Below, piece by piece: positions 26,501-54,400 of a stretch of 64,000 nucleotides of DNA; within the stretch, counting starts at the first letter, position 1; the number at the start of each line of letters is the position of its first letter. The stretch is from Procambarus clarkii. Taxonomy: Eukaryota > Arthropoda > Malacostraca > Decapoda > Cambaridae. Below the pieces are notes generated by a model. The model saw only the letters and a program-made list of their open reading frames with translations, was not told the DNA's origin and made no database searches. The stretch covers positions 19,349,210-19,413,209 of the forward strand of contig NC_091227.1 in NCBI RefSeq assembly GCF_040958095.1. The letters run 5' to 3'. The translations under genes and the position numbers were made by a program.

Positions 26501-28390
26501 CCTCTGCAGTTATTAAAATGTCTGAAATGTTGGAAATTTGACTCCTGATCGTGATTTTTTATCCGAATTCTGACTCTCTGCACCTAATTTCAGTTTCAAA
26601 TTACAACTTTTTATACCGAAAATATGCCAATTACTGAAAACGGCGATGGGTCATATTTTGCCCAAACCCCCCTGCAGTTTTCAAAATGTCTGAAATGTCG
26701 GAAATTTGACTCCTGAGCGTGATTTTTTAGCCGAATTCTGACTCTCTGCACCTATTTTCAGTTTCAAATTACGACGTTTCATACCGAAAATATGCTAATT
26801 ACTGTAAACGGCGATGGGTCATATTTAGCCCAAACCCCATTGCAGTTTTCAAAATGTCTGAAATGTCGGAAATTTGACTCCTGAGCGTGATTTTTTATGC
26901 GAATTCTGACTCTCTGTACCTGTTTTCAGTTTCAAATTACGACTTTTTATACCGAAAATATGCCAATTACTGAAAACGGCGATGGGTCATATTTTGCCCA
27001 AACCCCCCTGCAGTTTTTAAAATGTATGAAATGTCGGAAATATGACTCCTAAGCGTGATTTTTGAGCCAAATTCTGACTCTCTGCACCTATTTTCAGTTT
27101 CAAATTACGACTTTTTATACCGAAAATATGCCAATTACTGAAAACGGCGATGGGTCATATTTTGCCCAAACCCCCTGCAGTTTTCAAAATGTTTGAAATG
27201 TCGGAAATTTGACTCCTGAACATGATTTTTGAGCCGAATTCTGACTCTCTGCACCTATTTTCAGTTTCAAATTACGACGTTTCATACCGAAAATATGCCA
27301 ATTACTGTAAACGGCGATGGGTCATATTTAGCCCAAACCCCCCTGCAGTTTTCAAAATGTCTGAAATGTCGGAAATTTGACTCCTGAGCGTGATTTTTTA
27401 TGCGAATTCTGACTCTCTGTACCTGTTTTCAGTTTTCATATTACGACTTTTTATACCGAAAATATGCCAATTACTGAAAACGGCGATGGGTCATATTTTG
27501 CCCAAACCCCCCTGCAGTTTTTAAAATGTATGAAATGTCGGAAATATGACTCCTAAGCGTGATTTTTGAGCCAAATTCTGACTCTCTGCACCTATTTTCA
27601 GTTTCAAATTACGACTTTTTATACCGAAAATATGCCAATTACTGAAAACGGCGATGGGTCATATTGTGCCCAAACCCCCTGCAGTTTTCAAAATGTCTGA
27701 AATGTCGGAAATTTGACTCTTGAACATGATTTTTGAGCCGAATTCTGACTCTCTGCACCTATTTTCAGTTTCAAATTACGACGTTTCATACCGAAAATAT
27801 GCCAATTACTGAAAACGGCGATGGGTCATATTTTGCCCAAACCCGCCTGCAGTTTTTAAAATGTATGAAATGTCGGAAATTTGACTCATAAGCGTGATTT
27901 TTGAGCCGAATTCTGACTCTCTGCACCTATTTTCAGTTTCATATTACGACGAGGCATACCGAAAATATGCCAATTACTGTAAAAGGCGATGGGTCATATT
28001 TTGCCCAAACCCCCCTGCAGTTTTCAAAATGTCTGAAATGTCGGAAATTTGACTCCTGAGCGTGATTTTTGAGCCGAATTCTGACTCTCTGCAACAATTT
28101 TCAGTTTCAAATTACGACGTTTCATACCGAAAATATGCCAATTACTGAAAATTGCGATGGGTCATATTTAGCCCAAACCCCCCTGCAGTTTTTAAAATGT
28201 ATGAAATGTCGGAAATTTGACTCATAAGCGTGATTTTTGAGCCGAATTCTGACTCCCTGCACCTATTTTCAGTTTCAAATTACGACGTTTCATACCGAAA
28301 ATATGCCAATTACTGTAAACGGCGATGGGTCATATTTTGCCCAAACCCCCCTGCAGTTTTCAAAATGTCTGAAATGTCGGAAATTTGAAT
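17560..28390 (+). repeat. Satellite zone B: blocks with CAACAATTTTCA and TTGCAG variants
   Basis: This zone is marked by TGCAACAATTTTCATTTTC monomers (about 18049, 19887, 22404), a CCCCAGCAGTTTT monomer at 18139 and 22493 (spacing 4354 bp, 26 monomers with short forms), an ACGAGGTTTCAT monomer at about 19741, 24094 and 26270, and a CCCCATTGCAG monomer at about 20644, 24661 and 26835. The 2.2-kb stretch from about 18.0 kb is repeated almost unchanged from about 22.36 kb. Boundaries are approximate because the monomers intergrade. Confidence 0.75.
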
Positions 28391-30210
28391 CCTGAGCGTG
28401 AGTTTTGAGCCGAATTCTGACTCTTTGCACCTATTTTCAGTTTCATATTACGATGAGGCACACCGAAAATATGCCAATTACTGTAAACGGCGATGGGTCA
28501 TATTTTGCCCAAACTCCCCTGCAGTTTTCAAAATGTCTGAAATGTCGGAAATTTGACTCCTAAGCGTGTTTTTTTATCCGAATTCTGACTCTCTGCACCT
28601 ATTTTCAGTTTCCAATTATGACTTTTTATACCGAAAATATGCCAATTACTGAAAACGGCGATGGGTCATATTTTGCCCAAACCCCCCTGCAGTTATTATA
28701 ATGTCTGAAATGTTGGAAATTTGACTCCTGAGCGTGATTTTTTATCCGAATTCTGACTCTCTGCACCTAATTTCAGTTTCAAATTACAACTTTTTAAACC
28801 GAAAATATGCCAATTACTGAAAACGGCGATGGGTCATATTTTGCCCAAACCCCCCTGCAGTTTTCAAAATGTCTGAGATGTCGGAAATTTGACTCCTGAG
28901 CGTGATTTTTGAGCCGAATTCTGACTCTCTGCACCTATTTTCAGTTTCAAATTACGACGTTTCATCCCGAAAATATGCCAATTACTGAAAACGGCGATGG
29001 GTCATATTTTTCCCAAACCCCCCTGCAGTTTTCAAAATGTCTGAAATGTCGGAAATTTGACTCCTGAGCGTGATTTTTTAGCCGAATTCTGACTCTCTGC
29101 ACCTATTTTCAGTTTCAAATTACGACGTTTCTTATCGAAAATATGCCAATTACTGTAAACGGCGATGGGTCATATTTTGCCCAAACCCCCCCTGCAGTTT
29201 TCAAAATGTCTGAAATGTCGGAAATTTGACTCCTGAGCGTGATTTTTTAGCCGAATTCTGACTCTCTGCACCTATTTTCAGTTTCAAATTACGACGTTTC
29301 TTATCGAAAATATGCCAATTACTGTAAACGGCGAAGGGTCATATTTTGCCCAAACCCCCCTGCAGTTATTATAATGTCTGAAATGTTGGAAATTTGACTC
29401 CTGAGCGTGATTTTTTATCCGAATTCTGACTCTCTGCACCTAATTTCAGTTTCAAATTACAACTTTTTAACCCGAAAATATGCCAATTACTGAAAACGGC
29501 GATGGGTCATATTTTGCCCAAACCCCCCTGCAGTTTTCAAAATGTCTGAGATGTCGGAAATTTGACTCCTGAGCGTGATTTTTTATCCAAATTCTGACTC
29601 TCTGCACCTATTTTCAGTTTCAAATTACGACGTTTCATAACGAAAATATGCCAATTACTGAAAACGGCGATGGGTCATATTTTGCCCAAACCCGCCTGCA
29701 GTTTTTAAAATGTATGAAATGTCGGAAATTTGACTCATAAGCGTGATTTTTGAGCCGAATTCTGACTCTCTGCACCTATTTTCAGTTTCATATTACGACG
29801 AGGCATACCGAAAATATGCCAATTACTGTAAAAGGCGATGGGTCATATTTTGCCCAAACCCCCCTGCAGTTTTCAAAATGTCTGAAATGTCGGAAATTTG
29901 ACTCCTGAGCGTGATTTTTGAGCCGAATTCTGACTCTCTGCAACAATTTTCAGTTTCAAATTACGACGTTTCATACCGAAAATATGCCAATTACTGAAAA
30001 TTGCGATGGGTCATATTTAGCCCAAACCCCCCTGCAGTTTTTAAAATGTATGAAATGTCGGAAATTTGACTCATAAGCGTGATTTTTGAGCCGAATTCTG
30101 ACTCCCTGCACCTATTTTCAGTTTCAAATTACGACGTTTCATACCGAAAATATGCCAATTACTGTAAACGGCGATGGGTCATATTTTGCCCAAACCCCCC
30201 TGCAGTTTTC
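27070..30210 (+). repeat. Intra-array duplication, copy 1 (partner 37150-40293)
   Basis: This stretch matches 37150-40293 at an offset of about 10082 bp, close to 60 monomers. Shared rare markers include ATATTGTGCCCAAACC (27663 and 37745), GAATCCTGAGCGTGAG (28388 and 38470), GCGTGTTTTTTTATCC (28564 and 38646) and TTTCATCCCGAAAA. The copies differ by scattered single changes, so the duplication is recent relative to monomer divergence but not perfect. Confidence 0.75.
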
Positions 30211-33200
30211 AAAATGTCTGAAATGTCGGAAATTTGAATCCTGAGCGTGAGTTTTGAGCCGAATTCTGACTCTTTGCACCTATTTTCAGTTTCATATTAC
30301 GATGAGGCACACCGAAAATATGCCAATTACTGTAAACGGCGATGGGTCATATTTTGCCCAAACTCCCCTGCAGTTTTCAAAATGTCTGAAATGTCGGAAA
30401 TTTGACTCCTAAGCGTGATTTTTTATCCGAATTCTGACTCTCTGCACCTATTTTCAGTTTCCAATTATGACTTTTTATACCGAAAATATGCCAATTACTG
30501 AAAACGGCGATGGGTCATATTTTGCCCAAACCCCCCTGCAGTTATTATAATGTCTGAAATGTTGGAAATTTGACTCCTGAGCGTGATTTTTTATCCGAAT
30601 TCTGACTCTCTGCACCTAATTTCAGTTTCAAATTACAACTTTTTAAACCGAAAATATGCCAATTACTGAAAACGGCGATGGGTCATATTTTGCCCAAACC
30701 CCCCTGCAGTTTTCAAAATGTCTGAGATGTCGGAAATTTGACTCCTGAGCGTGATTTTTGAGCCGAATTCTGACTCTCTGCACCTATTTTCAGTTTCAAA
30801 TTACGACGTTTCATACCGAAAATATGCCAATTACTGAAAACGGCGATGGGTCATATTTTTCCCAAACCCCCCTGCAGTTTTCAAAATGTCTGAAATGTCG
30901 GAAATTTGACTCCTGAGCGTGATTTTTTAGCCGAATTCTGACTCTCTGCACCTATTTTCAGTTTCAAATTACGACGTTTCTTATCGAAAATATGCCAATT
31001 ACTGTAAACGGCGATGGGTCATATTTTGCCCAAACCCCCCCTGCAGTTTTCAAAATGTCTGAAATGTCGGAAATTTGACTCCTGAGCGTGATTTTTTAGC
31101 CGAATTCTGACTCTCTGCACCTATTTTCAGTTTCAAATTACGACGTTTCTTATCGAAAATATGCCAATTACTGTAAACGGCGATGGGTCATATTTTGCCC
31201 AAACCCCCCTGCAGTTTTCAAAATGTCTGAAATGTCGGAAATTTGACTCCTAAGCGTGATTTTTTATCCGAATTCTGACTCTCTGCACCTATTTTCAGTT
31301 TCCAATTATGACTTTTTATACCGAAAATATGCCAATTACTGAAAACGGCGATGGGTCATATTTTGCCCAAACCCCCCTGCAGTTATTATAATGTCTGAAA
31401 TGTTGGAAATTTGACTCCTGAGCGTGATTTTTTATCCGAATTCTGACTCTCTGCACCTAATTTCAGTTTCAAATTACAACTTTTTAAACCGAAAATATGC
31501 CAATTACTGAAAACGGCGATGGGTCATATTTTGCCCAAACCCCCCCTGCAGTTTTCAAAATGTCTGAAATGTCGGAAATTTGACTCCTGAGCGTGATTTT
31601 TTAGCCGAATTCTGACTCTCTGCACCTATTTTCAGTTTCAAATTACGACGTTTCTTATCGAAAATATGCCAATTACTGTAAACGGCGATGGGTCATATTT
31701 TGCCCAAACCCCCCTGCAGTTATTATAATGTCTGAAATGTTGGAAATTTGACTCCTGAGCGTGATTTTTTATCCGAATTCTGACTCTCTGCACCTAATTT
31801 CAGTTTCAAATTACAACTTTTTAACCCGAAAATATGCCAATTACTGAAAACGGCGATGGGTCATATTTTGCCCAAACCCCCCTGCAGTTTTCAAAATGTC
31901 TGAGATGTCGGAAATTTGACTCCTGAGCGTGATTTTTTATCCAAATTCTGACTCTCTGCACCTATTTTCAGTTTCAAATTACGACGTTTCATAACGAAAA
32001 TATGCCAATTACTGAAAACGGCGATGGGTCATATTTTGCCCAAACCCGCCTGCAGTTTTTAAAATGTATGAAATGTCGGAAATTTGACTCATAAGCGTGA
32101 TTTTTGAGCCGAATTCTGACTCTCTGCACCTATTTTCAGTTTCATATTACGACGAGGCATACCGAAAATATGCCAATTACTGTAAAAGGCGATGGGTCAT
32201 ATTTTGCCCAAACCCCCCTGCAGTTTTCAAAATGTCTGAAATGTCGGAAATTTGACTCCTGAGCGTGATTTTTGAGCCGAATTCTGACTCTCTGCAACAA
32301 TTTTCAGTTTCAAATTACGACGTTTCATACCGAAAATATGCCAATTACTGAAAATTGCGATGGGTCATATTTAGCCCAAACCCCCCTGCAGTTTTTAAAA
32401 TGTATGAAATGTCGGAAATTTGACTCATAAGCGTGATTTTTGAGCCGAATTCTGACTCCCTGCACCTATTTTCAGTTTCAAATTACGACGTTTCATACCG
32501 AAAATATGCCAATTACTGTAAACGGCGATGGGTCATATTTTGCCCAAACCCCCCTGCAGTTTTCAAAATGTCTGAAATGTCGGAAATTTGAATCCTGAGC
32601 GTGAGTTTTGAGCCGAATTCTGACTCTTTGCACCTATTTTCAGTTTCATATTACGATGAGGCACACCGAAAATATGCCAATTACTGTAAACGGCGATGGG
32701 TCATATTTTGCCCAAACTCCCCTGCAGTTTTCAAAATGTCTGAAATGTCGGAAATTTGACTCCTAAGCGTGATTTTTTATCCGAATTCTGACTCTCTGCA
32801 CCTATTTTCAGTTTCCAATTATGACTTTTTATACCGAAAATATGCCAATTACTGAAAACGGCGATGGGTCATATTTTGCCCAAACCCCCCTGCAGTTATT
32901 ATAATGTCTGAAATGTTGGAAATTTGACTCCTGAGCGTGATTTTTTATCCGAATTCTGACTCTCTGCACCTAATTTCAGTTTCAAATTACAACTTTTTAA
33001 ACCGAAAATATGCCAATTACTGAAAACGGCGATGGGTCATATTTTGCCCAAACCCCCCTGCAGTTTTCAAAATGTCTGAGATGTCGGAAATTTGACTCCT
33101 GAGCGTGATTTTTTATGCGAATTCTGACTCTCTGCACCTATTTTCAGTTTCAAATTACGACGTTTCATACCGAAAATATGCCAATTCTGAAAACGGCGAT

Positions 33201-36200
33201 GGGTCATATTTTTCCCAAACTCCCCTGCAGTTTTCAAAATGTCTGAAATGTCGGAAATTTGACTCCTGAGCGTGATTTTTTAGCCGAATTCTGACTCTCT
33301 GCACCTATTTTCAGTTTCAAATTACGACGTTTCTTATCGAAAATATGCCAATTACTGTAAACGGCGATGGGTCATATTTTGCCCAAACCCCCCCTGCAGT
33401 TTTCAAAATGTCTGAAATGTCGGAAATTTGACTCCTGAGCGTGATTTTTTAGCCGAATTCTGACTCTCTGCACCTATTTTCAGTTTCAAATTACGACGTT
33501 TCTTATCGAAAATATGCCAATTACTGTAAACGGCGATGGGTCATATTTTGCCCAAACCCCCCTGCAGTTTTCAAAATGTCTGAAATGTCGGAAATTTGAC
33601 TCCTAAGCGTGATTTTTTATCCGAATTCTGACTCTCTGCACCTATTTTCAGTTTCCAATTATGACTTTTTATACCGAAAATATGCCAATTACTGAAAACG
33701 GCGATGGGTCATATTTTGCCCAAACCCCCCTGCAGTTATTATAATGTCTGAAATGTTGGAAATTTGACTCCTGAGCGTGATTTTTTATCCGAATTCTGAC
33801 TCTCTGCACCTAATTTCAGTTTCAAATTACAACTTTTTAAACCGAAAATATGCCAATTACTGAAAACGGCGATGGGTCATATTTTGCCCAAACCCCCCTG
33901 CAGTTTTCAAAATGTCTGAGATGTCGGAAATTTGACTCCTGAGCGTGATTTTTGAGCCGAATTCTGACTCTCTGCACCTATTTTCAGTTTCAAATTACGA
34001 CGTTTCATACCGAAAATATGCCAATTACTGAAAACGGCGATGGGTCATATTTTTCCCAAACCCCCCTGCAGTTTTCAAAATGTCTGAAATGTCGGAAATT
34101 TGACTCCTGAGCGTGATTTTTTAGCCGAATTCTGACTCTCTGCACCTATTTTCAGTTTCAAATTACGACGTTTCTTATCGAAAATATGCCAATTACTGTA
34201 AACGGCGATGGGTCATATTTTGCCCAAACCCCCCTGCAGTTTTCAAAATGTCTGAGATGTCGGAAATTTGACTCCTGAGCGTGATTTTTGAGCCGAATTC
34301 TGACTCTCTGCACCTATTTTTAGTTTCAAATTACGACGTTTCATACCGAAAATATGCCAATTACTGAAAACGGCGATGGGTCATATTTTTCCCAAACCCC
34401 CCTGCAGTTTTCAAAATGTCTGAAATGTCGGAAATTTGACTCCTAAGCGTGATTTTTTAGCCGAATTCTGACTCTCTGCACCTATTTTCAGTTTCAAATT
34501 ACGACGTTTCATACCGAAAATATGCCAATTACTGAAAACGGCGATGGGTCATATTTTGCCCAAACCCCCCTGCAGTTTTCAAAATGTCTGAAATGTCGGA
34601 AATTTGACTCCTAAGCGTGATTTTTTATCCGAATTCTGACTCTCTGCACCTATTTTCAGTTTCCAATTATGACTTTTTATACCGAAAATATGCCAATTAC
34701 TGAAAACGGCGATGGGTCATATTTTGCCCAAACCCCCCTGCAGTTATTATAATGTCTGAAATGTTGGAAATTTGACTCCTGAGCGTGATTTTTTATCCGA
34801 ATTCTGACTCTCTGCACCTAATTTCAGTTTCAAATTACAACTTTTTAAACCGAAAATATGCCAATTACTGAAAACGGCGATGGGTCATATTTTGCCCAAA
34901 CCCCCCTGCAGTTTTCAAAATGTCTGAGATGTCGGAAATTTGACTCCTGAGCGTGATTTTTTATCCAAATTCTGACTCTCTGCACCTATTTTCAGTTTCA
35001 AATTACGACGTTTCATAACGAAAATATGCCAATTACTGAAAACGGCGATGGGTCATATTTTGCCCAAACCCGCCTGCAGTTTTTAAAATGTATGAAATGT
35101 CGGAAATTTGACTCATAAGCGTGATTTTTGAGCCGAATTCTGACTCTCTGCACCTATTTTCAGTTTCATATTACGACGAGGCATACCGAAAATATGCCAA
35201 TTACTGTAAAAGGCGATGGGTCATATTTTGCCCAAACCCCCCTGCAGTTTTCAAAATGTCTGAAATGTCGGAAATTTGACTCCTGAGCGTGATTTTTGAG
35301 CCGAATTCTGACTCTCTGCAACAATTTTCAGTTTCAAATTACGACGTTTCATACCGAAAATATGCCAATTACTGAAAATTGCGATGGGTCATATTTAGCC
35401 CAAACCCCCCTGCAGTTTTTAAAATGTATGAAATGTCGGAAATTTGACTCATAAGCGTGATTTTTGAGCCGAATTCTGACTCCCTGCACCTATTTTCAGT
35501 TTCAAATTACGACGTTTCATACCGAAAATATGCCAATTACTGTAAACGGCGATGGGTCATATTTTGCCCAAACCCCCCTGCAGTTTTCAAAATGTCTGAA
35601 ATGTCGGAAATTTGAATCCTGAGCGTGAGTTTTGAGCCGAATTCTGACTCTTTGCACCTATTTTCAGTTTCATATTACGATGAGGCACACCGAAAATATG
35701 CCAATTACTGTAAACGGCGATGGGTCATATTTTGCCCAAACTCCCCTGCAGTTTTCAAAATGTCTGAAATGTCGGAAATTTGACTCCTAAGCGTGATTTT
35801 TTATCCGAATTCTGACTCTCTGCACCTATTTTCAGTTTCCAATTATGACTTTTTATACCGAAAATATGCCAATTACTGAAAACGGCGATGGGTCATATTT
35901 TGCCCAAACCCCCCTGCAGTTATTATAATGTCTGAAATGTTGGAAATTTGACTCCTGAGCGTGATTTTTTATCCGAATTCTGACTCTCTGCACCTAATTT
36001 CAGTTTCAAATTACAACTTTTTAAACCGAAAATATGCCAATTACTGAAAACGGCGATGGGTCATATTTTGCCCAAACCCCCCTGCAGTTTTCAAAATGTC
36101 TGAGATGTCGGAAATTTGACTCCTGAGCGTGATTTTTGAGCCGAATTCTGACTCTCTGCACCTATTTTCAGTTTCAAATTACGACGTTTCATACCGAAAA

Positions 36201-39200
36201 TATGCCAATTACTGAAAACGGCGATGGGTCATATTTTTCCCAAACCCCCCTGCAGTTTTCAAAATGTCTGAAATGTCGGAAATTTGACTCCTGAGCGTGA
36301 TTTTTTAGCCGAATTCTGACTCTCTGCACCTATTTTCAGTTTCAAATTACGACGTTTCTTATCGAAAATATGCCAATTACTGTAAACGGCGATGGGTCAT
36401 ATTTTGCCCAAACCCCCCCTGCAGTTTTCAAAATGTCTGAAATGTCGGAAATTTGACTCCTGAGCGTGATTTTTGAGCCGAATTCTGACTCTCTGCACCT
36501 ATTTTCAGTTTCAAATTACGACGTTTCTTATCGAAAATATGCCAATTACTGTAAACGGCGATGGGTCATATTTTGCCCAAACCCCCCTGCAGTTTTCAAA
36601 ATGTCTGAAATGTCGGAAATTTGACTCCTAAGCGTGATTTTTTATCCGAATTCTGACTCTCTGCACCTATTTTCAGTTTCCAATTATGACTTTTTATACC
36701 GAAAATATGCCAATTACTGAAAACGGCGATGGGTCATATTTTGCCCAAACCCCCCTGCAGTTATTATAATGTCTGAAATGTTGGAAATTTGACTCCTGAG
36801 CGTGATTTTTTATCCGAATTCTGACTCTCTGCACCTAATTTCAGTTTCAAATTACAACTTTTTAAACCGAAAATATGCCAATTACTGAAAACGGCGATGG
36901 GTCATATTTTGCCCAAACCCCCCTGCAGTTTTCAAAATGTCTGAGATGTCGGAAATTTGACTCCTGAGCGTGATTTTTGAGCCGAATTCTGACTCTCTGC
37001 ACCTATTTTCAGTTTCAAATTACGACGTTTCATACCGAAAATATGCCAATTACTGAAAACGGCGATGGGTCATATTTTTCCCAAACCCCCCTGCAGTTTT
37101 CAAAATGTCTGAAATGTCGGAAATTTGACTCCTGAGCGTGATTTTTTAGCCAAATTCTGACTCTCTGCACCTATTTTCAGTTTCAAATTACGACTTTTTA
37201 TACCGAAAATATGCCAATTACTGAAAACGGCGATGGGTCATATTTTGCCCAAACCCCCTGCAGTTTTCAAAATGTTTGAAATGTCGGAAATTTGACTCCT
37301 GAACATGATTTTTGAGCCGAATTCTGACTCTCTGCACCTATTTTCAGTTTCAAATTACGACGTTTCATACCGAAAATATGCCAATTACTGAAAACGGCGA
37401 TGGGTCATATTTAGCCCAAACCCCCCTGCAGTTTTCAAAATGTCTGAAATGTCGGAAATTTGACTCCTGAGCGTGATTTTTTATGCGAATTCTGACTCTC
37501 TGTACCTGTTTTCAGTTTTCATATTACGACTTTTTATACCGAAAATATGCCAATTACTGAAAACGGCGATGGGTCATATTTTGCCCAAACCCCCCTGCAG
37601 TTTTTAAAATGTATGAAATGTCGGAAATATGACTCCTAAGCGTGATTTTTGAGCCAAATTCTGACTCTCTGCACCTATTTTCAGTTTCAAATTACGACTT
37701 TTTATACCGAAAATATGCCAATTACTGAAAACGGCGATGGGTCATATTGTGCCCAAACCCCCTGCAGTTTTCAAAATGTCTGAAATGTCGGAAATTTGAC
37801 TCTTGAACATGATTTTTGAGCCGAATTCTGACTCTCTGCACCTATTTTCAGTTTCAAATTACGACGTTTCATACCGAAAATATGCCAATTACTGAAAACG
37901 GCGATGGGTCATATTTTGCCCAAACCCGCCTGCAGTTTTTAAAATGTATGAAATGTCGGAAATTTGACTCATAAGCGTGATTTTTGAGCCGAATTCTGAC
38001 TCTCTGCACCTATTTTCAGTTTCATATTACGACGAGGCATACCGAAAATATGCCAATTACTGTAAAAGGCGATGGGTCATATTTTGCCCAAACCCCCCTG
38101 CAGTTTTCAAAATGTCTGAAATGTCGGAAATTTGACTCCTGAGCGTGATTTTTGAGCCGAATTCTGACTCTCTGCAACAATTTTCAGTTTCAAATTACGA
38201 CGTTTCATACCGAAAATATGCCAATTACTGAAAATTGCGATGGGTCATATTTAGCCTAAACCCCCCTGCAGTTTTTAAAATGTATGAAATGTCGGAAATT
38301 TGACTCATAAGCGTGATTTTTGAGCCGAATTCTGACTCCCTGCACCTATTTTCAGTTTCAAATTACGACGTTTCATACCGAAAATATGCCAATTACTGTA
38401 AACGGCGATGGGTCATATTTTGCCCAAACCCCCCTGCAGTTTTCAAAATGTCTGAAATGTCGGAAATTTGAATCCTGAGCGTGAGTTTTGAGCCGAATTC
38501 TGACTCTTTGCACCTATTTTCAGTTTCATATTACGATGAGGCACACCGAAAATATGCCAATTACTGTAAACGGCGATGGGTCATATTTTGCCCAAACTCC
38601 CCTGCAGTTTTCAAAATGTCTGAAATGTCGGAAATTTGACTCCTAAGCGTGTTTTTTTATCCGAATTCTGACTCTCTGCACCTATTTTCAGTTTCCAATT
38701 ATGACTTTTTATACCGAAAATATGCCAATTACTGAAAACGGCAATGGGTCATATTTTGCCCAAACCCCCCTGCAGTTATTATAATGTCTGAAATGTTGGA
38801 AATTTGACTCCTGAGCGTGATTTTTTATCCGAATTCTGACTCTCTGCACCTAATTTCAGTTTCAAATTACAACTTTTTAAACCGAAAATATGCCAATTAC
38901 TGAAAACGGCGATGGGTCATATTTTGCCCAAACCCCCTGCAGTTTTCAAAATGTCTGAGATGTCGGAAATTTGACTCCTGAGCGTGATTTTTGAGCCGAA
39001 TTCTGACTCTCTGCACCTATTTTCAGTTTCAAATTACGACGTTTCATCCCGAAAATATGCCAATTACTGAAAACGGCGATGGGTCATATTTTTCCCAAAC
39101 CCCCCTGCAGTTTTCAAAATGTCTGAAATGTCGGAAATTTGACTCCTGAGCGTGATTTTTTAGCCGAATTCTGACTCTCTGCACCTATTTTCAGTTTCAA

Positions 39201-40293
39201 ATTACGACGTTTCTTATCGAAAATATGCCAATTACTGTAAACGGCGATGGGTCATATTTTGCCCAAACCCCCCCTGCAGTTTTCAAAATATCTGAAATGT
39301 CGGAAATTTGACTCCTGAGCGTGATTTTTTAGCCGAATTCTGACTCTCTGCACCTATTTTCAGTTTCAAATTACGACGTTTCTTATCGAAAATATGCCAA
39401 TTACTGTAAACGGCGATGGGTCATATTTTGCCCAAACCCCCCTGCAGTTATTATAATGTCTGAAATGTTGGAAATTTGACTCCTGAGCGTGATTTTTTAT
39501 CCGAATTCTGACTCTCTGCACCTAATTTCAGTTTCAAATTACAACTTTTTAACCCGAAAATATGCCAATTACTGAAAACGGCGATGGGTCATATTTTGCC
39601 CAAACCCCCCTGCAGTTTTCAAAATGTCTGAGATGTCGGAAATTTGACTCCTGAGCGTGATTTTTTATCCAAATTCTGACTCTCTGCACCTATTTTCAGT
39701 TTCAAATTACGACGTTTCATAACGAAAATATGCCAATTACTGAAAACGGCGATGGGTCATATTTTGCCCAAACCCGCCTGCAGTTTTTAAAATGTATGAA
39801 ATGTCGGAAATTTGACTCATAAGCGTGATTTTTGAGCCGAATTCTGACTCTCTGCACCTATTTTCAGTTTCATATTACGACGAGGCATACCGAAAATATG
39901 CCAATTACTGTAAAAGGCGATGGGTCATATTTTGCCCAAACCCCCCTGCAGTTTTCAAAATGTCTGAAATGTCGGAAATTTGACTCCTGAGCGTGATTTT
40001 TGAGCCGAATTCTGACTCTCTGCAACAATTTTCAGTTTCAAATTACGACGTTTCATACCGAAAATATGCCAATTACTGAAAATTGCGATGGGTCATATTT
40101 AGCCCAAACCCCCCTGCAGTTTTTAAAATGTATGAAATGTCGGAAATTTGACTCATAAGCGTGATTTTTGAGCCGAATTCTGACTCCCTGCACCTATTTT
40201 CAGTTTCAAATTACGACGTTTCATACCGAAAATATGCCAATTACTGTAAACGGCGATGGGTCATATTTTGCCCAAACCCCCTGCAGTTTTCAA
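28390..40293 (+). repeat. Satellite zone C: gene-proximal blocks of 11-18 monomers
   Basis: Diagnostic variants are CTTATCGAAAAT (CTTACCGAAAAT elsewhere), GTTATTATAATG (GTTATTAAAATG elsewhere), CTTTTTAAACCG, and a run of seven C before TGCAG. A monomer with GATGAGGCACACCG recurs at about 28454, 30304, 32658, 35682 and 38538. The spacings of 1850, 2354, 3024 and 2856 bp correspond to 11, 14, 18 and 17 monomers. The last monomer is cut at CTGCAGTTTTCAA (ending 40293), where unique DNA begins. Confidence 0.8.
37150..40293 (+). repeat. Intra-array duplication, copy 2, at the gene-side edge
   Basis: Second copy of the block at 27070-30210 (offset about 10.08 kb). It runs to the edge of the array, so the array-gene junction falls within what is internal sequence in copy 1. 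This argues that the edge was made by breakage or insertion within an existing array, or that the assembly joined two pieces here. Confidence 0.7.
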
Positions 40294-40342
40294 GAACAAC
40301 AACAACAACAGACAGTGTCAGTAGTGTGTTGTGATATGAAAT
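40294..40342 (+). promoter_or_regulatory. INTS7 5' leader and candidate initiator
   Basis: Only 49 bp separate the last satellite base from the INTS7 start codon. They hold an (AAC)n tract at 40295-40310 and TCAGTAG at 40318-40324, which fits the arthropod initiator TCAKTY imperfectly. If transcription starts at the A at 40320, the leader is about 23 nt and the -30 region lies in the final satellite monomer. An out-of-frame ATG at 40336 opens a 14-codon frame that overlaps the INTS7 start and stops at 40378-40380. No TATA box is evident in the unique part. Whether this is the whole promoter is inference. Confidence 0.35.
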
Positions 40343-43300
40343 ATGGCTACAGCATTAGCAAGACCCATCTCCTTTCCTGATATTGGGTTGAGTGAGCAGG
40401 ACCAGGATGGTAATTCAGCGTTGCTGGAGCTGGACAGAGGTGAGCGGTCGCTCTGTGTCCCGGGACATCTTTGGAAGATATAAAATAGATTAATTAATTT
40501 TGTCGGGGACAGGCTGCCTGGGTATTTTACCTGAGAGCCAATGACACTAGTGCCCTCGACGAAAACATGAGCCGGCGGCTTGTCGAAGCTCCCCTATTTG
40601 CCTTGATGATCTATTCTACCTTACCTACCAACCTACCTTACCTTACCTAGTTGTACTTTAAAAGTTAAAAGTTTACAGCTTCCACGGGTAGGCGGTTCCA
40701 TGGGTTTATATCCCTGTGGGTGAAGAGACATTTCCTGTTCTCAGTCCTACATTGTGGCTTGTTGAGCTTGAAACCGATGTTACTTAAATATATATACCCA
40801 GGGCTATATAGTCGTAATGGCTTGGCGCTTTTCCCCTGATAGTTCCCTTCCCCTCGTATATACGTATGTTGGGCTTATAGCGAGGTCCCCCACAAGATGG
40901 AAATACAGACCCTCCCCAGGATGCAACCCCACAACATGGTGACTAACTCCTGGGTATCTACTTACTGCTAGGTAAACAGAGGCAGTAGATGATAGGAATA
41001 TGCCCAACCATTTTTGTCCCGCCCTGAAATTTGAACCCGGGATTCCCAATTGTGAGTCGAGAACAAACATCTCTACTACTAATCTAATTTGACATCAGCA
41101 GTGGTCACACTTGTATGGGTAAAGAATTCATGCATTGTTATTACTGTAAGGTGTTGTATTCACAGTATATATTGGAGCCTCGAGAGCCTTGACTTAGGCC
41201 ACAGAGGCTGACGTATTGCACTGCACAATTTGGATACAAGTTGAAGAGATGATGGATTATTTGAATACATCATAACATAAAGGGGGACGCAGTCGGGTTC
41301 ATTCTCAATTCACAGTCATGAATTCCGGGTTTGAATCCCGAGTAGGGCAGAAATGGTTGGGTGCGTTCCTACCATTTCCTGCCTCTGTTCACCTACCAGT
41401 AAATAGGTACCCAGGCATTAACTTGTTGTAGAGTTGCATCTTTGGGAAAGGTTAGTAGTTTGACCTTTGGAGTGACCTTGATGTAAACCGTACATGTGTA
41501 TGTATACTGGATGTCTTTTCCCCAACATAGTGAATTAATTAAATTAATAATACCATAATGTTGTGGCATGAAAGCGGCACAAGATCAAATTTGCCAGTAC
41601 AACAATGTGAAGTCACCAATGACTTGAAATTTGAACAAGTCACATCTCTCATTGAACCCTATTGGTAAATTTAGATGTAAAAAATGTTCTCATCAAAATT
41701 TCCCTACCTGCTGATATGGGTTGGAAATTTGAAGTATTGCTTTACTTTAAAAATTGACCACTTGGTATGGCATTTCACTGGTAAGATAAAGTTGCCATAT
41801 CTAGCTGCTTGTTGGCATCTTGTGCCAAGAAAACCTATAGCACCTGCATCAGTGAATAGATTGCAACCATTCTAATAACATGTTGAATCACAAAAGACGG
41901 AAAGGTATTCATTGTGAAAATTATAATACATGATTTTTATGATAATCAAATGTAGACTAAGGAAGGAAGATGATTGTATTTTTCTCAGAAAAGAACATTT
42001 ATGTATTTATCAAATATGACAACACCTTGGATACAGTACTACTTTATATGAAGGTATAATATTGTCTTAAGAGTGTTGTAAGATGCCTACTGTACTTGCT
42101 AACGTGGAATTTTTTCCCTCAATATTACGCAACTTGTTTAATTCATATATTTTTCGCCTTATTTCAACATATTGAAGTACAGTATAAATAAAACTTTCTT
42201 GATTTTATACTTAGTTTTAGCCAATGTGGTAGGTGCTACAATTTATTCGCCCATGTGTCTGACAAGAGGCAACTTTATCCTATGAATTAACTATTGTTAT
42301 CCTATGAATTAGGCTATTGTTATAAATAATTATCATCATGTTTTGGAGAGGATGATTCTAATCATTATATTTCTTCCAATTATGAAATTTTGGGTATACA
42401 ATTTTTCTAATTTTTATTACTGGAAGTACAGTACAGTATGACATTTGTAACTTTGGTACTGTAATATTGTATAATACATAATACAAAAATTATATTCATG
42501 GGGCCTCGTGGGGCCTCGTAGCCTGGTGGATAGCGCGCAGGACTCGTAATTCTGTGGCGCGGGTTCGATTCCCGCACGAGGCAGAAACAAATGGGCAAAG
42601 TTTCTTTCACCCTGAATGCCCCTGTTACCTAGCAGTAAATAGGTACCTGGGTGTTAGTCAGCTGTCACGGGCTGCTTCCTGGGGGTGGAGGCCTGGTCGA
42701 GGACCGAGCCGCGGGGACACTAAAGCCCCGAAATCATCTCAAGATAACCTCAAGATATGGGTAGTAATACAAAATTTAAGCTTAGCAGTCATATTGCCTG
42801 TGATTATTATGCAAATTTGTTTAAGAATACGTTGAAAAAAGTTCTTTACAGGTCTTAAAGAGTTTTAGGCAGAATTTCCATTGCATATAAAATTTTGTAT
42901 TTGTGATTTCCAGGGCTGAAATCATCGAGAACAGGAGAACAGTGTGAAGCTATATCTAAATTTCCAGCACTGTTTGAAAAATACCCATTTCCTATCCTAA
43001 TTAACTCTGCTCTACTGAAATTGGCTGATGTATTCCGCCAGGAGACACCGGGGTGAGTTTGTATTTTTATGTATCGTGTATAGAATGGAGCTGTTTTGCA
43101 CTTGTCATAGTTAGTGTTTGCAAAGTTATGAAAACTTTTATACCTAAAATGATGTACAGTGCCTTGGTGAAGGAAATGCTAAATCAACTCATTATAGATG
43201 TGAAAAGTGTTTATTTGTTCCAGCATGATATTGTGATCTGTATTTTGCATGGGGAAAAAAAAAGACACTCCTTTGGTATGCATACCTTGTCATGTATTGT

Positions 43301-45422
43301 TTGATACAACATTCTGAGCATCACAGTTGTAGAAAGTAAAATACAGTACAGTACAGAAATACTGAGGTGCTTTTAACTCAAAATGTGGTAAATCATGAAA
43401 ATTGTTTCCTTGTCTGTGAGCAAAACACAACAAACATTATTCATGGGATACATTTGTGTAATAAAGGAAAAAGATAAAACTAACCAAAAAAAAAAATGTC
43501 GTTGGTTTGGTGAGCTGTACACGGAGGCCTGATGGCGAGGTCATTGAAGCTGTTAATGCCAGATGCGTTGTTTGCCGACAGTGGTATGGGGAGACAATTC
43601 AAATGTTCAATTTCAGTGGTTTGATGCTTTGTTCATTAATTTACATAATATAGAGTTTGCATTGAATATATTTATGTACAGATGTCTGATAAACAGTGCT
43701 AAAAATACTTTACAATATAATTGAGTACACTGTACTGTAAGTCTACATTACTTATGTACACCTTTCTTGCATTCCTGGCACAGCTCAGGAAGTGTCTCCT
43801 CTGAGACACTTTCTTCTCTACCCAACCCTTTGCTCAAATTCTCTCTGGTTTTGTCATCCGAGAATGGATTGAAACACTGGTGGTAAAGAGCAATTGTTAT
43901 CTGACAATAACCCCAGGCTCCTAGTAAATGATAACCTCATTGTATTATTGCAATGAGGTTATTATTTATTATTATCATTGCATTGCAATTACAAAACAAG
44001 ATCAATTTTTTTCATGAGTATTTATTATCTCCATTACATTTTTATAGATGTATTATGATCATACAGTATTTACATTAATACAAAGTAGGCAGTAATAACA
44101 AAAATCGTTAAATGATGATAACTACAGTGGCTAGAAGTTTGACATATGATTTTTTTATTATTATTATTATTATTTTCTACCACAGATGTGGCCACACATT
44201 TACAATGCTAATCAGCATATATACATTTTCTTCTGTCCTCCATGGACAGGGTTAGAGATGTGTTAAACATATAGTTCAGGGGTTTATTGAACAATCAACC
44301 ACAGAAGGCGATTCGGTGCTTTTAAAATGCTAAGCTAACCTACATACGTAAATACATAGAAACACAGATGTTTGACATATGATGACTACACATTGTAGAC
44401 TGTGTACATTCGTAACGTGTTCCTCAATCTTTTATATCAAGTGTCTCGTGTACCATACTTTATTGAGTTATCAAATTCCACTTTAACTTACCCCTTACCA
44501 AACCACTGTGGAATTCTCCAGGAAAAGATCTGCATTTGTTTTCTTGCCTGAGCGAAGTCAGTTTTATTTCCTATTCATGATTTTGCTTCATCTTCCATTG
44601 TTGTTAATAAATCAAGTTAGTACTGTAGGGTTTTTTCACAAAATAAGCTTACTATAACTTCATTTCAGGAGCAACTTTGTGCGTGTCTGTGTTGTTGAAG
44701 TGGTGGAATCGTGTGGACGGCATTTAGATAAGCTCATTAATGTGGATGAGTTCCTCCGTCGTATTACAACTGTCATGCATTCAAATGATCCAGTGAGTTG
44801 AAGATAACAAACATTTTATATAAAATTTTTCTGCTTGTTCTTAGTACTGTATTTGTAGGCTGTTGCTTAAGGTTAGCCAATTGGTAAGTTCTGTATATGT
44901 AAACCATTTTATGAAGGATTCATTTATGTTTGGAAAACTTTGATACCTAGGATAGTAGGTTATATAATAATGATGTATCATAGGTAACATTAGTTCTTTT
45001 ATTTATAATCTTTATTATTTAGCTATATAATGTAAAGAGAACAGTGCTGTAAATGAATGTGTATTCTGTGTGAAAAGGGGCATTATTTTAATGTTTGTGA
45101 AAAGAGGTGTACTGGCTAACTCTCATCCTGTAACTATACTTAGGTAATTATACAGACGAGCTATAGGGATGTCTTCAGAAAATAAATATTTTTCCAACTA
45201 TACTTGCCTTCATAAAGCAAAAGTGATTGTCTTCTAATGGAGACTAAATGTCAGTCATTAAGACATAAGAGAACGGTAATTTGAAAAGGAAATAACAGAT
45301 TGATTTCACTTTAAAAGGGAATGTTACTGGGAATTATTGTATGTTTGTACAAAGCAGGATTTCACAGCACCAGATACACTATGGACTTAAGAGCATAACT
45401 TAGAGCACTTAGTGTAAGTGAT

Positions 45423-45472
<50 letters not shown>

Positions 45473-48400
45473 CAGTATATATATATATAACTTGATGATT
45501 TAAGTAGAAGCAAAGCAGTTGAGTACTGAAAAAAGGTGCTCATAAGCTTAGCTTCCCACTGCAGATTATTTTCAATGCATCTTTACAAAAGAAACCTTGC
45601 AGACATAAGAAGTGGTAACCATTCCCAATTTATAAAAATGATAACAAAAGGTCCATTAAGCTATTGGTCAGTATTACGTATTACTGACAAATATGCATGT
45701 TAAATTACTTTCTCCATTAATTTGACTAAATGGGTTAAAGCTCTGTAAATAAAAAATATAATAAACTTGCAGTATCATCGCATTGAAATCACAATGGCAT
45801 GATTGACAATGGTTTTACTTGGGCAGAGTATGAGCATTTTGTGTTTTTATAATGAACCGAGCTAGACTGTACTGTATCTCTTTCTAAGAATAATCCGTTT
45901 ATAATGACATTATTCAGTCAAGAAAAATAAAATGTTATGTATGAAGATTTTCCTGTAATGGCTGTTCTCTCTTTTAACCCGCAGTTGGCACGGGCCCTCA
46001 CTCTTCGTACTCTGGGATGGATGTCGGGGGTTGTGGGAGAGAACAGACGAGTGCAGCATCTGATCCGTGAAGCCCTAGATGCTAAGGAATCGGTGGAGCT
46101 TCAGGCTGCTATAATGGCTGCAGAAAAATATGCTGCAAAATCTAAGTATGGATTTTGAATATTTTATGGGTGTCAATTATTAATATAATAATTACATGGT
46201 GTATTCATTTTATACTTCTGATAAATATCTTACATGAGAAATAGTTAACATTTTTTTTTTTAGTGCTGCAAAAGTTATAGCAGTAATATATTTGACAGAA
46301 CATTTGCTATGAACATGTGTGAACGTCTCATCCACATGATTGGAGGACTGGCAACACCAGTTGATGTGAAGCTACAGCTGATTCAAGTGTTTCAACACAT
46401 GCATCATGATGCTGAAACTGCTGCAACTGTAAGAATAACTTGGTATTATGAATATTCAGGGTATGGAAGGAGCAACTGCTGAATCATAATTTTGTTCTGT
46501 ATTATATTATCTTGCTGAGATCAGTCTCTTCCAAAAATGATAGTATGTGTAGCAACGTTTGGTTGGACGTACAAAAATTACCTATTGTACCCAGAAAAAA
46601 TTCATGTTTTGTACTATATTATTTTTGTGGACGGTAAGAACCAAGCTTAAGCTTTCCCTAGGCCTATTAAAACACAAATATGCAGGCGATGAGTCACAAT
46701 AACGTGGCTAAATTATATTGACCAAACCACACACTAGAAGGTGAAGGGACGACGACGTTTCGGTCCGTCCTGGACCATTCTCAAGTCAATCAAGTAAAAA
46801 TATGTACTAAATTTGACCTAAGATGTCTTGTATTAGGCTAAGAATTGCTTATTTAGACCTAGGACAGGTTAAGCTAGGTTGTTTAGTTCCAGTTTTAGAA
46901 ATGTATTTCGGTATAATTCCAATAGGACAAAATAACTTTTCCTACGTATACCAGTTCATTTATGTACAATGAACAAGTAGTTGCTATCACCACTATCTCT
47001 TCTATGTCCTCTTTCTTATTCCTCCTCCTCTTCCCTCTTTCCCTTTTTGTCTTACATAACTATTATCATCATCCATTGTTTGGCAAGGTTTTGATCCAAG
47101 TACTGAGGGACTTTATGTTGATACTGTTAAAAGTAGTATTTGGTACATTTGTTGCACATTTAAATTATACTGAATAAAGTTGTAAATTTGATTATGTAAC
47201 ATTTTTAAGAATTCATTTTGAGTAAACAAATATATGGTTTTTATTCAGGAGCTTAAAATAAAATTTTAATTAATAGCCATCTGGATTATTAAAAATGGCT
47301 TGATGAATAATCGTCTCCACATAAATTAATTACCGTACTATTTAAGGTGCGGAGTTTGTGCCTGGAGCTATTGAAGGAGTACCCAACACAGCGAGTGGTG
47401 ATTACAACATTACACACGCTCACACAACTGGCTGCTCATATTCTGGTGGACATTCCTCAGCAGGTGAGTTACAAATATTCTCATTCATTCGGCAGGTGAG
47501 CTATAGGTAGTCTCATTCATTTAGCAGGTTGTTAGCAGGAAATGGATGATTGACATTTTGTTTGACTATATCTTTACACTTAATATCTGAAATATGTGAG
47601 GAACTCCCTTGGTTATTATGCTGAATGAGGGAGTACTAGTTCCCCATGATGATACAGATTGCAGTAGTATAAATTCTTTGTGATGCTACAAATTGTTGAA
47701 GCACTAATTCTGTTATACTATCAAGTGTGGAGCTAATAGTTCCCCATTATGTACCATGTGTGGAAGTGTTAGTCGAGTGTTATGCTATAGAGTATGGAAG
47801 GTAGAGTGACATGAAAGAATGTATTAAACCAAATGTATTTATTCTTCACAGCCAATTTTTACATTCTCAGAGCACATTGTTTGTGAATGCTTCTAGAGAT
47901 TGTCTAATGCATCATTACAGTGAAGGTTTATTCTAATGAGACTTAATATTATTGTGTAAACTTGTTTTACAGTATTCCAAAAAATGTGTATCTTTAAAGG
48001 TTATATCTGTGATTATTATTATAGAAATTTTTTTTTCTGAGCTAGCTCTCAAAGGTATATGTTTAAGCTGTACTGACATTGGATATTGATGCATGTGTTT
48101 TGCAATTAATTCCAGACAGAATTTTGAGTGTCCAAGCTAAGCCGAGGCAGATATATAATAAAAATTAGTTTCCATACTTCCTCTGCATTCAGATCTTATT
48201 ATGTTAAAGATAGTTTTTGTTTTGTTTTCTTTAATGTTATCAAGATAACCAATTAAAGATGTTTTCTTCTACCCCCATCAGCAGTACTGGTTTGTTCACC
48301 CCATACTCATCATGTGAGCAAAATATATATATAGAGCATAGGAATTTTTAATATTTTATCAATAGCAATAAAATTATAAGCCATTTTCTGTTTAGTTCAG

Positions 48401-51400
48401 GTGTGATAAGTTTAGATCTGTCTCTAAAGGGTTAAGTTTTCACAAAATATAAGATATAATGGTCTAGTGTGTGTCCCCTGTCTTTTTCCACACACTTCAC
48501 ATTTCTTGGTAGGTTGTTTACCTCTTTCTCGACATTAGAGAACATTATGTCTAGTTGCCTTCTTCTAGGCAAAAGATGGAGATAAAATACCAATATGAAG
48601 TATAGTATTACCCAATTATTCATCACTCCATGTGTCTCTTTTAAGTAGGAGTCCTTCCCAAATTATGTTTTTATTCTTTAATTCCAAATCTGTTCTGTTT
48701 TGTTACAGGTTGACCTCTTAATTGGATACTTGGAGAGTGAGGCACGCATTGGAGTCCGTCAAGCAGTCCTTGGCGAGCTTGGGTTCCTAGCAGGGGCAGC
48801 ACCACATGCTTGGTCTGCAGACAACGTGGAAACACTGGTTAAGTTTACTCGATCTTCTCGCCACAATCCTGCTATGACTACAACAGCCCTCTCTGTTCTG
48901 GCATCACTGACTGCAGCTCCAGCTCTGCCTCGCATCACACTTACTCCTGGTAGGTTGTTAATGTTAGCAATATTGAAGCTTTAGTTGAGTTTTATTACAG
49001 TTTAGCATTAGTGAATTCATACTCTTGGATATCAAAACTATTATGGTGCCATAATGTCTTTCTTTTTACTTAATTTATCAACAAAGTCGACTTTATTCAT
49101 TACATTGGAGTCGGTTACCTTTCCTTCAACAGGATTTAATATTTGGATTAGCCATTTGGAAAGCTTATAAGCAGTACAGTGTATAGCCTATGGAGCTAAT
49201 AAGTGTGTCAGAATTATTAAATTTAACTTTAACACATCCATACATGTAAGGCAGAAGTTGTTAGGAATTTTTTAATTACAAGTAGTCTTTTTACCTATTC
49301 TTTTGTTTTGGTTAAATTGCTTTTTATACTATCCAAAGTGTTCTTTGTAAATTTACATTGTGTTCCTCAATTCATTTTATAATTTATTTTGTTCACAATT
49401 ACACTAGATTAGACAGGTTTGCTTGTGTCATGTGTAAAGATTTAATTCTTAAGTAACACACAGACAAAGCTAGAGAAAGTTCAGAGGTATGCAACTAAGC
49501 TAGTCCCAGAACTAAGAGGCATGAGTTACGAGGAGAAGCTGCATGAACTGCACTTCACATTGCTGGAAGACAGAGGAGCTCAGGGAGATATAATCACCAC
49601 ATACAAAATCCTCAGGGGAATTGAGAGTAAACAAGGATGGATTATTTAACATGGGTGGTACAGACACAAGGGGACACAAGTGGAAGCCGAGTACCCAAAT
49701 GAGCCACAGAGACATTCGAAAGAACTTTTTCAGCGTCAGAGTACTGTAGTAAGTAAATGGAATGCATTAGGCAGTGATGTGTGGAGGCTGACTCCATACA
49801 CAAGTTTCAAATGTAGATATGATAGAGCTCGAGAAGCTCAGGAATACACAAGTAGATTGATGGTTGAGAGGCGGGACCAAAGAGCCAAAGCTCAAGCTCA
49901 ACCCCGCAAGCACAATTGGGTGAGTACACTAGTGGTGATGTGTATCCCAGAAAAATATGAATTTAAGAATTGTCATAACTAAAGAGTTGTAAAAAGACCA
50001 TTGACCACCCACCTTTCAGTGGTGTTATTTATGTATATATATCCACATTTATATTTATACATTTTGTATATAACTACTTTCAAGTTTAACTTTGAATTAT
50101 TTCAGAATGTGCCCTTGTAGACTTGTGCCGAGAGTGTGTGTACGACAGTAACATTCATGTGGCATGCAGAGCCATTCAGCTGTTTACCAACATAGCTATC
50201 TATATGTAAGTAGCAGTGTTTCTCCTTGACATTTATAGCATTGTCTTGTTTATAATGCTGTACGGTACTGTAAACTCTCTTTGTTTGTACCTTGTTAAGA
50301 AGCATGTTTGTAATGTTGCACACAAGTTAAGCACATTTTATCTTGCATGTGTTTTGTCTCGCCCGAAGGTTTGAGGAGCAGAAAACAAGTGTAGTGTGTG
50401 AAGAGGCTCACTGTGCTGCTCTGAGTCTTCTGCAGAGTGTTGTCAGTGCATCACAGGTTGATGATGCTGCCAAGCCTGGCCCCGAGGGGTTCATTCCTGC
50501 TGGTCTTCGGACGTGTTTGGTATGCATGTACAGTACATTCTTTTTAATTTCAGTGGATGAAGTTTAGGGTCAACCCACCACACTTTTTGATACTGCACAA
50601 AACCATATTATACTTAAGAGACTTTTACATATTTCATTATTACTGTAATGTTAGTATGATTAGCATGGCTTTAAAATTTAATCTTTGCATATTTTTCTTT
50701 GGTAAGGTGTGTACTGTGCTACTAGCCCAGACTAAATCAAATATCATGAGTGACTTAGCCGTCACTCTGACTGACATCCTGGCAGACAGCATACTATCAG
50801 GTTAGTCACTTTTATTGACCTTTTGAGTGCTAGATTTATAATACAAAAACAAACTAAAATCTTACAAGATTGCAAATTTTGGTAGTATGAAAAATGTCAA
50901 TTATACAAAATGCAAATCTTATTGCCATTAGAAAAAGAACTTGACCTTGGCTTGCATTCCCCATGTGTCAGTTGGTGGGGGTCCATTTCAGTTTTTACGT
51001 GTTGATGCATAAATCGCTTTATACAACAGTCTTCTTATGTTTGCAGTTTAATTAAACAGTAATGAAAATAGTGTAATGTTTTCATTCAGAATATATTTGT
51101 TAACAATAATGATAAAATCCAGACACCTTACTCTATATTCCAATTAAAATCTTGGTATACACTTCAACCATGCATGCATTCATTTCCATCACTACACGTT
51201 GGATTTTGGTCCTCACCTTGCATACAACTCACAGATGAATGACGATCTTGTAGAAGCTGAGTCAAACAGATCAATTTTATTTTCAGAAAGTTAATAAACA
51301 ATAATATTGAATGTGGAACTTACAAAAATTTGTTAAAGTGAACAATAAAAAATTAATGGAAACTTGTAAAGGCTTATTTGATGTAGTGGATTTTTTAAGG

Positions 51401-54400
51401 GATATCTAAGGTATCTTGGAAAAGATGTGGATTATGACATAGTGAGAAGTGAAGGCATGGGATAAAGAATCTGAGAGAAATAAAAGTAAAAGTTGTGACT
51501 TTATTACTTAATTTATTGTTATAAATTTGTGAAGATATTATTTCATTTTTTTTTACTGTTTCTATAGTTTGTGGATGTCAGCTGGTGTGTGAGGCATTAG
51601 CATCCCTCGGGGGAAGTCGTGGTGAAGTTCTAACGCCACATCTGACACCAATTTTGAAACTCATTCAAAAATTTACACTTGAAGCACCACTCAGTCCACA
51701 CAAAACCAAATTAATGGTAGGTTATTTGAAACTATTTTGATAAAATTCAGAATAATTTTGTTTAGTCTGTAATTTGTCGCAATGTAAACACTATACAACA
51801 TGAATTTTAGGGATTCAACAGTAGTTAAAATTTACAGAATTGGTGTGCCTTAATTTTACAAAATGGGCACAGTTTATGAAACTTGAAGTGAATTTTTTTT
51901 TATTTCCATATTCTTTCGCTTTGCCAACAAAGCATCACTCATTATTTTCTCCTTTTTCTGTTCTTTACAATAGAAAATGTTTGAGACCATCCAGTACTTT
52001 GAAGATTATTATTCAAAGCTCTCAAGCCAATTATTTCTTGGTATTACTTCACTGTACTGGTATATATTACTTGGTCCTGGTAGTGCAGTTGGATTCGTTC
52101 TCGACGCACAATCAAGAATCTAGGGTTTGAATCTAGGGCGGGACAGAAATGGTTGGGCACATTTCCTTTTATCTAATGCTTCTGTCACCTAGCAGTGAGT
52201 AGGTACTCGAGAGTTAGCTTGTTGTGGGGTTGCATCCTGGGCGGGGTCAGTAATTCGGTTTTTGGGGGGACGACCTCGATAATACATACTATTTATACAT
52301 TGCTTGCTATTAGTTCTGAAGATTACATTGACTAGCATACAATATAATATGTTCATGTAACCCAGGTTACACTTGTCACGCTGGTTATGCAAGTGTTCCA
52401 TGGCCACGTCTGGTCCAGTCAAGCAGAAGCAGCTGTAGTGGCAGCAAGTAAATGTGTTGATCAATGGGCAGCATTCTGTATGGCACGACAGGCATCAAGG
52501 TTTGTGGAAATTATAGTTTTTAACATTTCATAGGAAGAAAGAATCCTGTTTACTGTCTTCCTTAAAGCTGCAGTATAATAATAATAATAAAGTTTGACAT
52601 TGCTTAGCACAATTTTAATTAACTTTCCATGATCTTGAAAAAATGTTAGACAATGGAAAATATGACTAAAGAATTAAGCCATACATTATTTTCAAAAGTA
52701 TAGTATCAGTAATAGTATTAAACTAAATGTATTGCTTTCAGTAAGTCAAAACTTTTCTACATACAATTTAAAATAGGTATGGCCATCATAGCCTGGCTGC
52801 TGGGATGTATGGAGTATTAAGTTGGCGTGTATGCTCCGACCAACAACATTTCTGGGTTTCGGCTCTGGGGAGGTAGTCTTGGTGAAGCCTGCCCAGTAGC
52901 AGCAGGTGACAGAGCAGATAATCTCACAGCAGCAAACACTCACCTCCACCGAGCACTCTCGGCTCTAAAGGTAATGAACTTCAGATAAATTTATGCAGAT
53001 CAATGTTAGATGCATGATGAATATTGAATTGCCTTCAAATTTATTAATGTAACTTTTTATTAAATTGGTTTAAGATACACATAGTGTTGTAAAGTCAATA
53101 GAATTATAATCATTACACCATATTAAAGGTTGTCATCATTATGCCATTTTCATTTTTCATTAAGTGAGGAGATAAACACCCAGAAGAAATACAGAAAAAA
53201 TAGGAGAGCAATATGGTTAATGATAGTCAAAAAGATACCCATCCATTTACACATGATGTGAACACCATATAACTATGTTGCCACTTACACAAAACATACA
53301 CAGCAGCACTGCTTCATATGACTGCATATTTATTGCTCTATCTTAACAAATTGTATCCTCTTAATCATATATCCTTCCTTACATGTGCTGTGTTCACACT
53401 TCACTCTCTCACATAGTTACTCACAATGTCTAACCAGCATTTCTTGGCCGCTGCCTCCTCCCTTTTATAGAATTCTTTCAGATACTGTACAGTATATCAT
53501 TCTATTATTTGTTCATTTAGTATGACCAACCCATTTTGATACTTCCTAATGTCTTTTCTAAGAGCCATGTAATCAGACTGACAACACTTTCTACTGATAT
53601 TATCTTGATATGATAATTAAGGTCTTTTGTTATATTGCCATACTGTGTGTTTATAAATGTGTACTTTTCATTTTTTTTTTTTTTTTAAAGGCTGCAAGCA
53701 CATCAAATCAGCCTATGACTTTCTGTCAAGAGTATGTGAGACTTAGGGCTGAAACTTTCATGTGCCACGCTCAGCTACTCCACGCCTGCCTCTCTCTCCG
53801 CACTGCCCCTCCCCCGGCTATTGCTGCATCTTTAGCAACATCAACAAGAGATGATCTCTTAAGGTGTGGCAGAGTATCACAGCAACTTGCAAAATCAGCT
53901 CGAGACTTTAACAATTTAGCCACTCAGTATGGAACTCTATACCAGGTAAACCTCTTTTAATTTGTTTAAATAAATTAAAACAAATATTTAAATTGTATGA
54001 GCCAATATTTATATATTTTGTATTGTATTTTGAAGAACAAAAAGTTCCCCTATATATTAATGTCTTATTGTAATACAGTATAATACTGTACAATAATGTT
54101 CCTCAAACTAAATGAGTGGTCACAGTTTAGTGAATAGTTACAAACCCACTCTTGAATTCCACATACTGTATTCCAAGAAACTCATTTGTTTCATTTTACA
54201 TCGATTTTGATTTGCTTAAATAAGGTGGCTAGTTGGTGGGTCTGCAGAACCATGCAGCAGATTGAGGAAGAGAACAACCTTAGGGTTATCATCCACCAGT
54301 CATTGAAAGTTGTTCAACAAATAGGAGCTGCTGTAAAAAAAAAATAGCTAACATAACTTTAGGAATAATTAGATGCACCTTTGACTTAAAGAAAAAAATA

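Follow-up and report, generated by a model that had tools for sequence, protein, structure and literature searches.

A 168-bp satellite array that ends 49 bp upstream of the INTS7 start codon in the crayfish Procambarus clarkii

Satellites near genes are already known, and several described systems resemble the locus reported here in part. TCAST satellite elements lie near Tribolium castaneum genes in lengths of up to tetramers, at least 262 nt from the gene in the accessible part of the survey (PMC3411249), and silencing by them has been shown after heat stress (PMC4537270). As at the present locus, satellite repeats there sit beside protein-coding genes, and they have been proposed to act as promoters or local silencers (PMC3411249, PMC4537270). 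The crayfish array is longer and closer to its gene than the Tribolium cases in the available survey text (PMC3411249): the window shows 240 full monomers, and the array ends 49 bp from the ATG. The PRAT satellite of Palorus beetles is likewise of nucleosome scale with possible internal initiation, but its RNA polymerase II transcripts were mapped by experiment, as far as the accessible text goes, whereas our case offers an initiator-like match in the DNA (PMC2220036). Genes of Drosophila pericentromeric heterochromatin provide a third parallel, namely a gene of housekeeping type beside repeats that is thought to keep a compact promoter; according to the available portion of that work insulator binding was measured there (PMC7368049), whereas we made a scan, in which the TATCGATA motif was absent from 40069-40345. 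Finally, decapod genomes are rich in satellite families, as the freshwater crayfish satellitomes illustrate, and the text available from those two studies yielded no 168-bp family (PMC13130569, PMC10454600). Literature searches for a 168-bp satellite in decapods, for satellite DNA in crustacea, and for a combination with promoters found nothing.

The window, by which we mean the whole 64,000-nucleotide stretch analysed (contig NC_091227.1 of assembly GCF_040958095.1, positions 19,349,210 to 19,413,209), begins inside the array. TRF reports one array at 1-40293 with a period of 168, 240.6 copies and 92% matches, its length in view being a lower bound because the repeats run off the left end of the window. 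Wrap-around alignment cuts it into 242 pieces, of which 240 are full monomers and two are partial (50 bp at the window's left end and 57 bp at 40237-40293). The full monomers have a mean identity to the consensus of about 95.7-95.8%, and most of them (203) are 168 bp long, the remainder being 159 (12), 166, 167 and 169 (8 each) or 158 bp (1). Such a long head-to-tail run of similar monomers is what defines satellite DNA, and chance is ruled out as the origin of a 40-kb tandem array. The full monomers comprise 105 distinct sequences, and 181 of the 240 have a copy identical in its aligned columns elsewhere in the window's array, as homogenisation by local duplication would have it. Overlapping duplications at many different spacings (e.g. 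11, 14, 22, 43, 48 and 60 monomers), and not a single regular higher-order repeat, make up the array. The satellite has no 14-mer in common with 40294-64000 on either strand (12-mers: 6 forward, 3 reverse), and blastn with word size 7 against the rest of the window gives just matches of 15-17 bases at E 0.95. The autocorrelation of WW dinucleotides at a lag of 10-11 is weak (0.06, shuffle P 0.17), and we therefore do not claim nucleosome positioning from sequence. No exact match to a 23-base pattern from the monomer came up in viral and genome contig collections, which contain no animal genomes.

The gene beyond the array is INTS7, with homology over much of the Integrator subunit 7 protein. 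Its joined N-terminal peptides match the PDB INTS7 chains 8rbx_g (E 1.3e-98) and 7cun_G (E 1.4e-98), aligning query 12-330 to chain 13-327 in 8rbx_g, and three joined downstream stretches match the same two chains at E 3.4e-58, the best of them aligning query 202-324 to residues 611-735 of 7cun_G. The start codon at 40343-40345 is preceded by an in-frame TGA at 40337-40339 and lies in a favourable context, with A at -3 and G at +4. We consider it very improbable that this is a non-expressed duplicate or allele of INTS7 which lost its promoter to the array while a working copy lies elsewhere: introns are present, so the gene is not a retrocopy, and the homology runs from near the N terminus into PDB residues 611-735 with no broken frame in the stretches read. 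Within the gene, a 32-bp unit repeated 2.3 times in tandem (80% matches, 47457-47529) spans an INTS7 exon end, so that the CAGGTGAG donor is present twice. In intron 1, at 42513-42760, a longer repeat-like stretch begins with a sequence resembling tRNA-Thr (CGT anticodon; Rfam tRNA, 44.7 bits) and is probably a tRNA-derived SINE; nothing besides this one tRNA was found among RNA families in 38000-64000. The repeat at 42500-42770 had no match in phages, and a 27-base pattern had none in viral contigs, both collections being without animal genomes. Two adjoining ORF stretches at 49446-49982 look as if they could encode the C terminus of a reverse transcriptase of LINE type.

Table 1. Features of the satellite array, the junction and INTS7 (window coordinates)
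Feature	Position	Strand	Basis or remark
168-bp satellite array	1..40293	+	TRF and monomer decomposition
Interior counterpart of the terminal block, lying 10,082-10,083 bp further upstream	27131..30212	+	monomer comparison, blastn
Terminal array block, 99.773% identical to 27131-30212	37214..40293	+	monomer column comparison and blastn
Initiator-like TCAGTT of the last full monomer, also contributing to a moderate 3' splice site whose AG ends at 40203	40200..40205	+	both readings at chance level
Upstream ORF of 48 codons that opens at a satellite ATG and overlaps the start of INTS7 in another frame	40234..40380	+	
Truncated last monomer, 57 of 168 bp	40237..40293	+	decomposition
49-bp non-satellite spacer	40294..40342	+	(AAC)5 at 40295-40309; TCAGT at 40318-40322; out-of-frame ATG at 40336
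INTS7 coding part of exon 1, then GT (gtgagc) donor	40343..40439	+	sequence, ORFs, PDB homology
INTS7 gene, approximate span (exon boundaries only partly refined), last stretch to stop ending 58180	40343..58180	+	peptide stretches and homology

A first-pass annotation of this DNA had the last monomer stop at about 40293 and INTS7 start at 40343, and TRF, the decomposition and the sequence agree on both points, giving a spacer of exactly 49 bp. The array breaks off mid-monomer, after 57 of 168 bases; the monomer is left after ...GTTTTCAA (40293), and GAACAACAACAACAACAGACAG... follows. Monomers at the edge of an array are usually expected to diverge more than those inside it. Here the last 5, 10 and 20 full monomers are 95.4%, 95.7% and 96.0% identical to the consensus, against 95.8% for all, and identity shows no trend towards the junction (Spearman 0.05, P 0.42). 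An old, worn array edge is ruled out, the monomers close to the junction being no more divergent than others. The terminal and interior blocks align by blastn over 3082 positions with 5 mismatches and 2 gap openings (99.773% identity), and when compared by columns the last 18 full monomers (from monomer 223) and the terminal partial differ from the block 60 monomers earlier at 7 columns, with the same-offset identity reaching its left limit 66 bases before 37214. On this comparison the array edge took part in a recent duplication. As the edge is unworn and the terminal block copies the interior, the junction is young, or has been refreshed by exchange, or the assembly path is wrong, and the sequence does not separate the three. 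The last of these would mean that exon 1 belongs next to another satellite copy, or next to no satellite, and that the true promoter lies elsewhere, which we judge unlikely. A block 10 kb further in is nearly identical to the last 3.08 kb, and the array is full of near-identical blocks spaced at several distances, which is the setting where assemblers take wrong exits; a false join would also give the same unworn edge. Set against this, the window contains no N, the 105 distinct sequences in 240 full monomers mean that long reads could place many of them, and a wrong exit within the array would still put a satellite-flank junction in some read.

The array and the gene differ in their CpG content, with an observed/expected ratio of 1.16 in the array, 0.51 in 40294-42913 (exon 1 to intron 1), and 0.33 in both the gene body and the downstream DNA. 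Germline methylation causes excess CpG decay, and the monomers carry no sign of it: in the 240 full monomers, whose counts are not independent because monomers are related, transitions number 116/3840 (0.030) at the 16 CpG columns and 411/12665 (0.032) at the 53 other C/G columns, and in the 105 distinct monomer sequences, 48/1680 and 192/5541. Long-standing germline methylation of the array is thus argued against, because the array has kept its CpGs while most of those in the gene have disappeared, and as regards CpG decay the monomers do not look like methylated satellite heterochromatin. The earlier suggestion that INTS7 is exposed to satellite chromatin therefore finds no support as regards DNA methylation, since CpG columns decay no faster. 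This contrast resembles the accessible description of the marbled crayfish methylome, in which the bodies of housekeeping genes carry methylation and most repeats do not (PMC6172769). A more elaborate reading would make the CpG-rich, unmethylated array the whole upstream regulatory region of INTS7, a repeat-built counterpart of a CpG island whose copy number and chromatin tune INTS7 output, and we regard this as improbable.

Where transcription of INTS7 begins was approached through motifs, upstream ORFs and splice sites. No TATA box (TATAWAWR or TATAWA) occurs in 40069-40345 on either strand. The single TCAGT of the spacer is a weak candidate because about 0.08 would be expected per 49 bp at the rate of the gene's plus strand (1.57/kb), and for TCAKTY the expectation in 168 bp is about 0.3 (plus-strand rate in the gene 1.83/kb). 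Given this last figure, the TCAGTT of the last monomer, which is also in the monomer consensus, is unremarkable. In beetles, RNA polymerase II transcribes satellites from sites within them, according to the part of that work at hand (PMC2220036). That the satellite itself is the INTS7 promoter, with initiation inside monomers that each bear TCAGTT, is highly unlikely in our estimation; the initiator-like matches are at chance level, there is no TATA box, and so no core motif exceeds chance, and a start at 40202 in the last full monomer would yield an overlapping upstream ORF. Three ATGs lie ahead of the INTS7 ATG, at 40234, 40256 and 40336. A leader beginning downstream of 40234 avoids the 48-codon ORF, one starting upstream of 40256 adds an ORF of 22 codons, and the spacer ATG opens a 14-codon ORF overlapping the INTS7 ATG. 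These upstream ORFs would give a short leader a slight preference; it is slight because the leader may contain the ATG at 40336 in any case, as it would with a start at 40320, so that overlapping upstream ORFs are perhaps tolerated.

Splice sites bear on whether the promoter belongs to a noncoding exon further upstream, within the array or past it, that is joined by splicing to the last monomer or to the spacer. We scored AG sites with a matrix built from 16 hand-picked acceptors of this INTS7 gene, whose leave-one-out scores range from -2.6 to 13.1. The 49-bp spacer contains no strong acceptor by this measure, its AG sites scoring -11.6, -8.4, 1.1 and -10.5; the 1.1 belongs to the AG within TCAGT (40321), which betters 2 of the 16 own acceptors, and the AG at the junction (40294) scores 1.3. 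In the last full monomer the AG ending at 40203 reaches 3.3, better than 4 of the 16 own acceptors and than 87.1% of 1383 background AG sites, and a CTGAC seen by eye ahead of a pyrimidine stretch in the monomer presumably fits the branch-point consensus. A hidden exon spliced into the last monomer is hence possible on this scoring but not indicated, and we hold an upstream noncoding exon of any kind to be rather unlikely: an acceptor at 40203 would leave the 48-codon overlapping ORF in the leader, similar sites exist in other monomers and the choice of the last among some 240 would need explaining, the best spacer acceptor scores just 1.1, and an exon beyond the array would require a satellite intron of more than 40 kb.

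We propose that INTS7 is a working gene whose minimal promoter lies where an ordinary satellite array ends, a model that, judged from the sequence, has about an even chance of being right. A recent tandem rearrangement would have brought the nucleosome-sized 168-bp array to end just upstream of INTS7, and the array would stop short of the minimal sequence that the gene needs. Transcription would then start no more than about 100 bp ahead of the ATG, perhaps at the TCAGT of 40318-40322, and a start this close is favoured because the spacer acceptors are poor and a longer leader gains the 48-codon ORF. A core promoter extends about 40 bp to each side of the position where transcription starts. 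The promoter proposed here would straddle the junction, taking in the last satellite bases, the spacer and the start of exon 1, and all DNA further upstream would be satellite which INTS7 tolerates and which does not act as silencing chromatin. The first-pass annotation had held 49 bp to be too short for a full promoter, which goes somewhat too far, since the spacer and exon 1 would accommodate part of a core promoter. The straddling promoter is favoured by there being no separate upstream DNA over 40 kb, and a recent rearrangement by edge monomers that are near the consensus and by the last 3.08 kb copying the interior; against the straddling promoter stand the missing TATA box, a TCAGT at chance level and the possibility of splicing into the spacer at the 40321 AG. 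The first-pass annotation had posed three alternatives (a core promoter overlapping satellite, an upstream noncoding exon, or a wrong join), which are the right set; the first is somewhat favoured because the spacer has no strong acceptor and a satellite-containing leader would bring in an upstream ORF, although the sequence does not decide among them.

Should the junction prove false, the case would still serve as a caution regarding places where assemblies join a satellite to a gene. If instead the junction holds, a gene of essential type works with almost no unique upstream DNA beside more than 40 kb of satellite, and the locus would provide a natural test of how little promoter such a gene needs, of whether a satellite can supply promoter function, and of whether satellite chromatin spreads into an adjacent gene.
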